DNA from: Ectothiorhodospiraceae bacterium
GTDB taxonomy: Bacteria > Pseudomonadota > Gammaproteobacteria > Nitrococcales > Halorhodospiraceae
Assembly (NCBI GenBank): GCA_003552625.1
Contig: PUNM01000095.1
Location: 1-64,000, forward strand
Length of the DNA stretch: 64,000 nt
Reading direction: 5' to 3'
Shown: positions 2,459-4,251 of the stretch, in pieces
How positions within the stretch are numbered: the first letter of the stretch is position 1
How the letters are laid out: every line of letters begins with the position of its first letter
Notes under the pieces: model-generated
Databases searched by the model: none
The model's input: the letters and a program-made list of their open reading frames with translations, nothing else
Told to the model about the DNA's origin: nothing
Translations under genes and position numbers: made by a program

Positions 2459-3205
2459 TTACTCGTTCAGGACCGCCTCCAGCTCGGCGAAAAAGGCTTC
2501 TATACGCCGCGCGTTCGCCCCCAGATCGTGCTGCCCGACCCGCGAAGCCGAGCGCACGTCCACGCGCCGCTCGCCGGGACCCTCGTCGCGGATCCGGACC
2601 GCCACGTCATCCACGAAGGCGAACCAGTCGCTGCGGGCAGCGGCTTCGAGCCCGCCTTGCTCGTCCGTGCGCGCGACCGTCCAACCCTGGGACCACGCCA
2701 CCTGCTGAGCGGCAGCGAGCAGGTCGGCGACGTTGTGCGAATAATAGCGCGCTTCGATCTCCGGATAGGCCTGCCGCTGCTTTTCCGCAACCTTCTCGCC
2801 CGGATGCTCCAGCGGGTTATCGCCGCGGGCACGGGCCGCGGCCAGAGCGTCGAAGGCAGGCGGATTGTCCAGGTCGGTGCTGACATCATGGATAGCCGGG
2901 AGCGTGAACGCGGCGTAGAAGTGGGGTGCGGTCACGGTGACCACGGCGCCGCCGAGAAGGAGAGCCAGAAGTGCGCGACCCCGCCCCCGCTTGCCGTGGA
3001 GGCCCAGGGTGGCCAGGAACCCCGGGACCGCAAGCAGCAGCGCCACGCCTGCAGCCGCTGCCCCGCTGACGACCATGACCATCGCCGGCTCCAGCTCGAT
3101 CCAGCGTACGCGGTAGAGCGGCCCGGCAACGGCGGCGCAGGCGGCCCCGAGGGCCGCAGCCAGCGCTGCCGTCGTGGCCAGCCGGGAGACCGGCGCTTGG
3201 AACAT
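2459..3205 (-). CDS. DUF1499 family membrane protein
   Basis: The protein has 248 residues. Three hydrophobic segments (about 8-30, 41-68 and 77-97) are followed by a soluble DUF1499 domain starting at IHDVSTDLDNPPAF (about 105) and running to the end. The function of DUF1499 proteins is unknown; many are membrane anchored and face the periplasm. The ATG at 3205 is preceded by GGAGGG, but both lie inside a perfect 14-bp inverted repeat (see 3203-3237), so translation may be controlled by RNA structure. Upstream on the same strand, 94 bp away, is the small MgtE_N-like gene. A 14-base palindrome (2444-2457) lies directly behind the stop. Confidence 0.88.
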   Translation of the reverse strand: MFQAPVSRLATTAALAAALGAACAAVAGPLYRVRWIELEPAMVMVVSGAAAAGVALLLAVPGFLATLGLHGKRGRGRALLALLLGGAVVTVTAPHFYAAFTLPAIHDVSTDLDNPPAFDALAAARARGDNPLEHPGEKVAEKQRQAYPEIEARYYSHNVADLLAAAQQVAWSQGWTVARTDEQGGLEAAARSDWFAFVDDVAVRIRDEGPGERRVDVRSASRVGQHDLGANARRIEAFFAELEAVLNE

Positions 3206-3237
3206 AATCCCTCCAGCCTTTGCCTGGAGGGATTATG
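3203..3237 (-). promoter_or_regulatory. Perfect 14-bp hairpin burying the Shine-Dalgarno and start codon of the DUF1499 gene
   Basis: Bases 3203-3216 (cataatccctccag) and 3224-3237 (ctggagggattatg) are exact inverted repeats around a 7-base loop. In the minus-strand mRNA the 3' arm contains the GGAGGG ribosome site and ends with the ATG, so both would be base paired. This is the layout of a translational switch such as an RNA thermometer, a riboswitch output stem or an autoregulatory site. No T run follows, which argues against a terminator. The geometry is directly visible; the regulatory role is inferred. Confidence 0.6.
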
Positions 3238-3299
3238 CGGGTGACGCCCTGCAGGTCCAAGCCTGGCCGTGGCACCAGGCGTTGGAGGAACGGCTACAC

Positions 3300-3674: not shown

Positions 3675-3723
3675 CTCTGCCTCCTTTTGATCGGGTGCCC
3701 GTCCCAGGGCACCGGAGGCAGAG
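3675..3723 (-). promoter_or_regulatory. Composite hairpin sequestering the ribosome site of the MgtE_N-like gene
   Basis: In the minus-strand RNA the 10 bases at 3723-3714 (ctctgcctcc) are the exact complement of 3684-3675 (ggaggcagag), which ends directly before the ATG. Between them a second 7-bp stem (3713-3707 with 3700-3694) closes a 6-base loop, leaving a 9-base bulge cgatcaaaa on the 3' side. The whole Shine-Dalgarno is therefore paired. This looks like the output stem of a translational riboswitch or a thermosensor. I saw no match to a riboswitch class I know. Confidence 0.6.
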
Positions 3724-3739
3724 GAGCCACGAGACTCCG

Positions 3740-3823
3740 TCAGGCTTCGCCGGAAACCCAGGGGCGGGCGTTGGTTCGCGGTACAGCGTCGCTGTTTGAC
3801 GTACTGCAATAACCGTCCGGCAT
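3740..3823 (-). CDS. Possible 27-residue leader peptide (upstream ORF)
   Basis: ATG at 3823 with a GAGG eight bases upstream opens a 27-codon frame (MPDGYCSTSNSDAVPRT, then NARPWVSGEA) ending at TGA 3740-3742, inside the leader of the MgtE_N-like gene. There is no run of one amino acid as in classical amino-acid attenuators. It may be chance; comparing related leaders would decide. Confidence 0.22.
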   Translation of the reverse strand: MPDGYCSTSNSDAVPRTNARPWVSGEA

Positions 3824-3856
3824 GACGGCAACCTCGTGTGGCTGACACGCAGCGTT

Positions 3857-3885
3857 AATCTATGTGGGGGTGCGCATCCTGTCAA
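3857..3885 (-). promoter_or_regulatory. Sigma-70-type promoter for the MgtE_N-like gene
   Basis: Reading the minus strand, TTGACA (3885-3880) is followed after exactly 17 bases by TAGATT (3862-3857). The -35 box is a full consensus match. The predicted start point is near 3850, about 175 bases upstream of the ATG. It is back to back with the rpmE2 promoter. Confidence 0.65.
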
Positions 3886-3908
3886 GGCGTGGAGGGGCCT
3901 CGCGTACC

Positions 3909-3937
3909 TTGACCCCCCTGGGCGCGGTGGATACTAT
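3909..3937 (+). promoter_or_regulatory. Sigma-70-type promoter for rpmE2-gltA
   Basis: TTGACC at 3909-3914 and TACTAT at 3932-3937 are separated by 17 bases. The start point would be near 3944, giving a leader of about 44 bases before the rpmE2 ATG at 3988, which has a GAGGGAG ribosome site. Confidence 0.65.
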
Positions 3938-3987
3938 CCGCGCTCAAATACTCGTCTTACGCGCGACGATAAGTCGCAGAGGGAGCT

Positions 3988-4251
3988 ATGAAGAAAGAGA
4001 TTCACCCCGAGTATCGTGAGGTCGTCTTCCAGGACATCTCGACGGATTTCTCCTTCCTGACCCGCTCGACGGTGCAGACCGACGAGACCATTACCTGGGA
4101 AGACGGCAAGGAGTACCCTCTGGTTAAGGTCGAGGTCTCCAGCCGGAGCCACCCCTTCTTCACCGGTAAGCAACGCGTCGTGCACTCTGGTGGCCAGGTC
4201 GATCGCTTCCGCAAGCGTTTCGGCATGACCCGCGGTTCCTCGGCCAACTGA
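3988..4251 (+). CDS. rpmE2: 50S ribosomal protein L31 type B (zinc-independent)
   Basis: The 87-residue protein opens [18 protein letters not shown] and contains [12 protein letters not shown] and VDRFRKRFG, all typical of L31 type B. It lacks the CxxC zinc-binding cysteines of the standard L31, and is longer (type A is about 70). In many bacteria such C-minus paralogues replace the zinc form when zinc is scarce. The only L31 in the window is this one; whether a type A copy exists elsewhere cannot be seen. It is followed after 48 bp by gltA on the same strand, with a 10-bp hairpin overlapping its stop codon. No Zur box was identified by eye. Confidence 0.95.

Follow-up and report, generated by a model that had tools for sequence, protein, structure and literature searches.

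In the parts of the sources used here, the toiL-topAI leader of E. coli (PMC12121999) and the erm leaders (PMC11264731) are described as uORF-regulated leaders with hairpins at the start site. Translational coupling offers a second point of comparison, and the portion of a review on that subject used here (PMC12548453) quotes rpmI-rplT (+52 nt) and phage f1 VII-IX as examples. For the protein family concerned, the relevant part of PMC11870540 presents FlgY as a flagellar protein with a predicted signal peptide. Here we describe a candidate translational control leader upstream of an MgtE_N-domain gene (mgtE_N) within a 64,000-nt window, the whole stretch of DNA that was analysed.

The start-site hairpin of the MgtE_N-like gene

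The start region of the MgtE_N-like gene carries a two-part hairpin on the minus strand (Table 1). Its outer stem is a perfect 10-bp complement between CTCTGCCTCC and GGAGGCAGAG, with an offset of 39 nt between the starts of the arms, exactly the pairing that the first-pass annotation had reported for the ten bases before the ATG. A 7-bp inner stem, GGTGCCC with GGGCACC, gives the minus-strand order CTCTGCCTCC-GGTGCCC-TGGGAC-GGGCACC-CGATCAAAA-GGAGGCAGAG-ATG (ATG at 3674-3672). The same annotation had this inner stem stacked inside the outer one, which is true of the 5' side, where stacking is direct, but not of the 3' side, where a 9-nt bulge that it did not mention, CGATCAAAA, interrupts the helix. 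The hairpin folds at -33.5 kcal/mol (z = -5.6), and 0/200 shuffles folded equally well.

The start was then ranked within a set of 50 window ORFs treated as genes, of which six were set by hand and the others chosen by an automatic rule. By extremeness of folding, the MgtE_N-like start region ranked second (z = -3.9). Its mean accessibility from -14 to +3 was just the 13th lowest, and the predicted unpaired values were 0.33 for AAGGAG and 0.73 for the ATG, so that the ATG and some of the SD are predicted to be open and the earlier description of the ribosome site as fully paired is overstated. The SD of this gene has an anti-SD energy of -11.6 kcal/mol.

An intrinsic terminator or transcription attenuator was rejected: the hairpin is followed at once by the start codon and the coding region, with no T run there, so the U run is absent 3' of the hairpin. 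No second copy of the hairpin DNA was found elsewhere in the genome, the next-best matches being 14-19 bases.

Table 1. Positions in the window of the leader elements, the MgtE_N-like gene and the neighbouring DUF1499 start hairpin.
Feature	Positions	Strand	Basis or remark
-35 element TTGACA, leader promoter	3880..3885	-	promoter motif in 9/10 relatives
-10-like element TAGATT	3857..3862	-	aligned across leaders
SD-like GAGG of uORF	3832..3835	-	anti-SD -5.9 to -8.9 kcal/mol in 9/10 (not L007)
Putative 27-codon uORF (MPDGYCSTSNSDAVPRTNARPWVSGEA)	3740..3823	-	ATG position common to 10/10
SD-like GGAG right behind uORF stop	3735..3738	-	anti-SD energies at uORF end
Outer stem, 5' arm CTCTGCCTCC	3714..3723	-	fold; covariation
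Inner stem, 5' half GGTGCCC	3707..3713	-	fold; inner-helix covariation
Inner stem, 3' half GGGCACC	3694..3700	-	fold
9-nt 3'-side bulge CGATCAAAA	3685..3693	-	fold
3' arm GGAGGCAGAG, SD and spacer of MgtE_N-like gene	3675..3684	-	fold; anti-SD energy
MgtE_N-domain protein, 124 aa	3300..3674	-	Pfam PF03448, E 8.4e-11
DUF1499 start hairpin, outside the conserved leader	3202..3238	-	-10-like CATAAT in 5' arm, 3237-3232

Conservation and covariation of the hairpin

Ten orthologous leaders were compared, from nine Halorhodospira species-level genomes (that of the window included) and one genome of a sister genus. All ten carry a hairpin at the equivalent place, with differing sequence. In a MAFFT alignment made blind to structure, 87.1% of cells were paired, against 76.4% after shuffling (0/500), double changes occurred in 12 cells against 4.8 (0/500), and the covariation score was 0.295 against 0.142 (0/500), with shuffles that leave the relatedness among the leaders in place. 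The covariation analysis proposed in the first-pass annotation thus backs the pairing. Sliding the partner positions gave at most 54.5% of cells paired, a comparison that favours the tested structure, which was the consensus of the same alignment (1 of 15 hairpin pairs omitted). The measures were not uniformly outstanding, since the double changes seen in 6/14 hairpin pairs were reached by 28/500 shuffles and the 11 further pair types by 172/500. Across the 10 sequences, 88% of cells in the inner helix were paired. At one pair, C-G has become U-G in three rows; such C-to-U changes opposite G fit an RNA structure better than a DNA palindrome.

Folding of single leaders gave z values of -2.7 or below in 9/10, with L009 at -1.5. 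The SD is not paired in every relative: its core is open to about one half or more in L006 (0.66 unpaired), L007 (0.68) and L010 (0.47), where the spacer/ATG zone is closed instead. The constant feature across the ten leaders is a hairpin whose end falls at or over the ATG. Because the hairpin recurs in 10/10 relatives with compensatory changes, the absence of the pairing from close relatives, which had been named beforehand as grounds for discarding the idea, did not occur.

Strong hairpins are common at high G+C, and a start that is merely 13th of 50 window genes in accessibility would also fit a chance pairing or an annotation artefact. The compensatory changes and the folding z values across 10 leaders stand against such an origin, the covariation result contradicts chance, and we consider this explanation very improbable. 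Judged by comparison of the aligned leaders, the hairpin is a conserved RNA structure rather than a product of chance.

The encoded protein and the distribution of the leader

The initiator Met of the MgtE_N-like protein is aligned across 10/10 orthologues, indicating that the start codon is soundly placed. The SD is very strong across the leaders (-8.4 to -13.8 kcal/mol). The AlphaFold model of the protein is helical (pLDDT 83), and the top PDB matches in a Foldseek search with it were MgtE cytosolic domains, the best at E 2.9e-3, with no match at E 0.001 or better; a sequence search of solved structures with the protein returned nothing at E 0.01. A second, distant MgtE_N protein (L019, G002:C58), approximately 33% identical over the match, occurs in genome G002; its reading frame extends beyond the MgtE_N domain, and it is possibly a frame-broken MgtE transporter.

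Orthologues of mgtE_N are present in 8/8 other genomes searched from the window's genus and in 1/3 searched from two sister genera. R1, a sequence model for the leader, gave exactly one match per genome, at 75-94 bits and before mgtE_N, in 10/12 genomes of the family; the mgtE_N gene is missing from the two genomes without the leader. No other copies were found among 54 genomes of the order, all non-leader matches to R1 scoring about 21 bits or less. In these searches, the leader is restricted to Halorhodospira and one sister-genus genome, and stands ahead of mgtE_N only. Of three Rfam scans, one gave a single match (E 3.7), one gave none and one gave two (E 0.58 and 3.6), all far below the gathering scores of the families, and a known Rfam leader or riboswitch family was rejected. 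Literature searches on Halorhodospira leaders and MgtE_N, mostly at the level of result listings, yielded nothing on the mgtE_N leader, and a search on T4 gene 38 yielded nothing.

Promoter-like sequence and putative upstream open reading frame

Upstream of the hairpin, the sequence listing reads TTGACA-N17-TAnnnT in 9/10 relatives, L010 being without it. By eye, a promoter-like TTGACC-N17-TACTAT of rpmE (L31) lies on the plus strand within 3880-3990 and diverges from the minus-strand leader promoter, so that the two stand back to back within a short intergenic region.

The putative uORF is 24-30 codons long across the leaders, with an MPD-like N-terminus (MPDxYCS) followed by a PRxxAR block. 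At or near its end, the anti-SD energy is -5.6 kcal/mol or stronger in 8/10 leaders (not L002 or L009). The uORF stop lies 4-18 nt from the first 5' partner base of the hairpin and, in linear distance, 65-79 nt from the mgtE_N ATG. Parsimony changes per codon position were 10/9/16 (L008 left out; p = 0.087), a weak coding signal, and 3/3/6 (p = 0.18) in the L001-L004 rows, which were counted as a group though the protein tree puts L007 and L008 among them. The frame is changed by 1 nt in L008, and L005 ends in a different frame, indicating that the uORF peptide is not strictly conserved. In L008 the shift comes from a 1-nt deletion, while the RNA sequence CGCGAGTCAACGCTCGC remains similar; it may reflect a sequencing error or a constraint at the RNA level.

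These features also bear on the possibility that the leader senses a ligand or ion, as a riboswitch, or temperature, as an RNA thermometer, with the apparent uORF serving as the aptamer and the hairpin as the expression platform. Mean column identity is higher in the uORF region (73%) than in the hairpin region (53%), the motif CGCGAAnCAnCGCnCGC is much alike even in the frame-shifted L008, and a helix closing the whole uORF region is possible, with 91.6% of cells paired. This helix, however, has double changes at two pairs only and modest shuffle support (30-63/500 over five measures), Rfam offers no match near a gathering score, and the ATG, SD-like site and stop placement of the uORF are all retained. 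For a thermometer in particular, the perfect CCUCC/GGAGG stem, at -33 kcal/mol, is far more stable than is typical of such elements. We regard a sensor of this kind as unlikely.

Less probable still is control of initiation by a protein bound to the leader, either the MgtE_N protein acting on its own mRNA or a global regulator, for example CsrA. The CsrA motif is ANGGA, and by eye an ANGGA-like motif (ACGGA, ATGGA or AAGGA) follows the uORF in most leaders, but L009 and L010 have lost it; the main SD has its GGA within a stem, not in a loop, and no RNA-binding family is recognised in the MgtE_N-like protein.

The DUF1499 hairpin

The first-pass annotation had set this hairpin beside one at the neighbouring DUF1499 gene and proposed that the two adjacent genes share a type of control. 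The DUF1499 start is the most extreme of the 50 window ORFs by folding (z = -5.1). Its palindrome is nevertheless absent from L002, L003, L004 and L010, the four relatives that have DUF1499 downstream; other sequences occupy that place in them. Within the 5' (left) arm, CGCATAAT is invariant in 5/5 and the remainder of the palindrome is not conserved. By eye, a TTGnCC/TTGGAC-like sequence lies 16-17 nt upstream of CGCATAAT in L001-L004. As read from the sequence, CGCATAAT is probably the -10 box of a promoter before DUF1499, in which case most of the 5' arm would be missing from the transcript of that promoter; transcripts reading through from mgtE_N would retain the arm.

Shared control of mgtE_N and DUF1499 was therefore rejected, for lack of conservation of the DUF1499 hairpin and because CGCATAAT, invariant within its arm, is likely a -10 box. 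The proposal of translational control holds up for the MgtE_N-like gene, whose start-site hairpin is found in all ten relatives with compensatory changes, and fails in its extension to DUF1499. Two neighbouring hairpins that look alike by eye thus differ in kind: one is very likely regulatory and conserved, the other local to a single genome.

Upstream of DUF1499, the CATAAT box of L002 and L003 is flanked by the arms of a near-perfect inverted repeat, TCCGGCC-GCATAAT-nGGCCGGA. This repeat could be an operator over the DUF1499 promoter.

Proposed control of mgtE_N translation

The proposal starts from what was observed: a covarying hairpin, a promoter-like sequence and a uORF start that are both conserved, and a leader that accompanies this gene one-to-one. 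Since paired substitutions in the two arms have preserved the hairpin, which follows a promoter and a probable uORF, it is very likely that the mgtE_N leader genuinely serves translational control. More specifically, we propose that a lineage-specific 5' leader of approximately 180 nt controls mgtE_N translation and is probably coupled to translation of the uORF, a tentative reading to which we give slightly less than an even chance.

Under uORF coupling, transcription from a sigma-70-type promoter would produce an mRNA that presents the short uORF first. A stable hairpin beginning about 4-18 nt past the uORF stop would close the SD, the spacer and the start, its 3' foot reaching or enclosing the ATG, and would reduce initiation on mgtE_N. 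While it translates the uORF or terminates there, a ribosome could then alter the hairpin, whether by unwinding it, by re-initiating across it, or through competition of the uORF end for its 5' half.

Two lines of modelling bear on these routes. Cognate duplexes between the uORF end and the hairpin were stronger than swapped ones (p = 0.002, in a permutation that ignores relatedness), and column counts for the same helix were not significant (81/500). When a ribosome footprint was blocked at each uORF codon, equilibrium pairing of the start site changed little in most species; the window stayed at 0.33-0.36, and larger shifts appeared in L004, L007 and L009. Equilibrium folding thus gives no support in most species to erm-like switching by a stalled ribosome. 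Taken together, the duplex tests and the small footprint effect lead us to prefer coupling to the uORF, or a hand-over from it, to switching of the erm type.

The stability of the hairpin at all modelled ribosome positions in most species is also what would be expected if it were a constitutive set-point, lowering mgtE_N expression or stabilising the mRNA without any signal, the uORF being incidental or a small-protein gene. The weak coding signal of the uORF agrees with this, and the very strong mgtE_N SD could offset the hairpin. Yet the order of promoter, uORF and hairpin and the uORF start in 10/10 leaders are conserved though such a set-point would not need them, and we hold it to be a serious but unlikely alternative. 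The set-point and the riboswitch are the main rivals to uORF coupling.

A variant would have the hairpin act as a bridge rather than a lock, with the uORF ribosome re-initiating across it on mgtE_N. Approximately 50-65 nt would be folded out, bringing the uORF stop and the GGAG behind it close enough to the mgtE_N ATG for initiation. We consider this variant improbable.

If coupling to the uORF is correct, the leader family of these halophilic phototrophs is tied one-to-one to an MgtE_N protein that stands alone, and would provide a natural test case for a uORF that signals to a hairpin beyond its stop codon.

Comparison with known systems

The 124-aa protein resembles the ARM-like domains of MgtE, FlgY and FliG through its MgtE_N domain and the match of its helical model, and differs from them in standing alone, without CBS or membrane domains. 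At the RNA level, RNA thermometers and translational riboswitches hold the SD in a stem, as the mgtE_N leader does; this leader, in contrast, comes near no Rfam gathering score, and its stem is much more stable than those of thermometers.

Translationally coupled pairs that work by unfolding or re-initiation, as presented in the part of the review used here (PMC12548453), likewise have their stop codon close to a structure that inhibits the following start. In the mgtE_N leader, however, the stop and start are 65-79 nt apart, and it is the hairpin rather than an overlap that brings them together. The layout also resembles that of the toiL-topAI and erm leaders, in which, on the portions of PMC12121999 and PMC11264731 used here, a short uORF is followed by a hairpin over the start region of the regulated gene. 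The mgtE_N leader departs from both in that modelled stalls hardly open its hairpin in most species, and from toiL, whose uORF itself pairs with the start region in the part of that account used here, in that its hairpin lies entirely 3' of the uORF stop.
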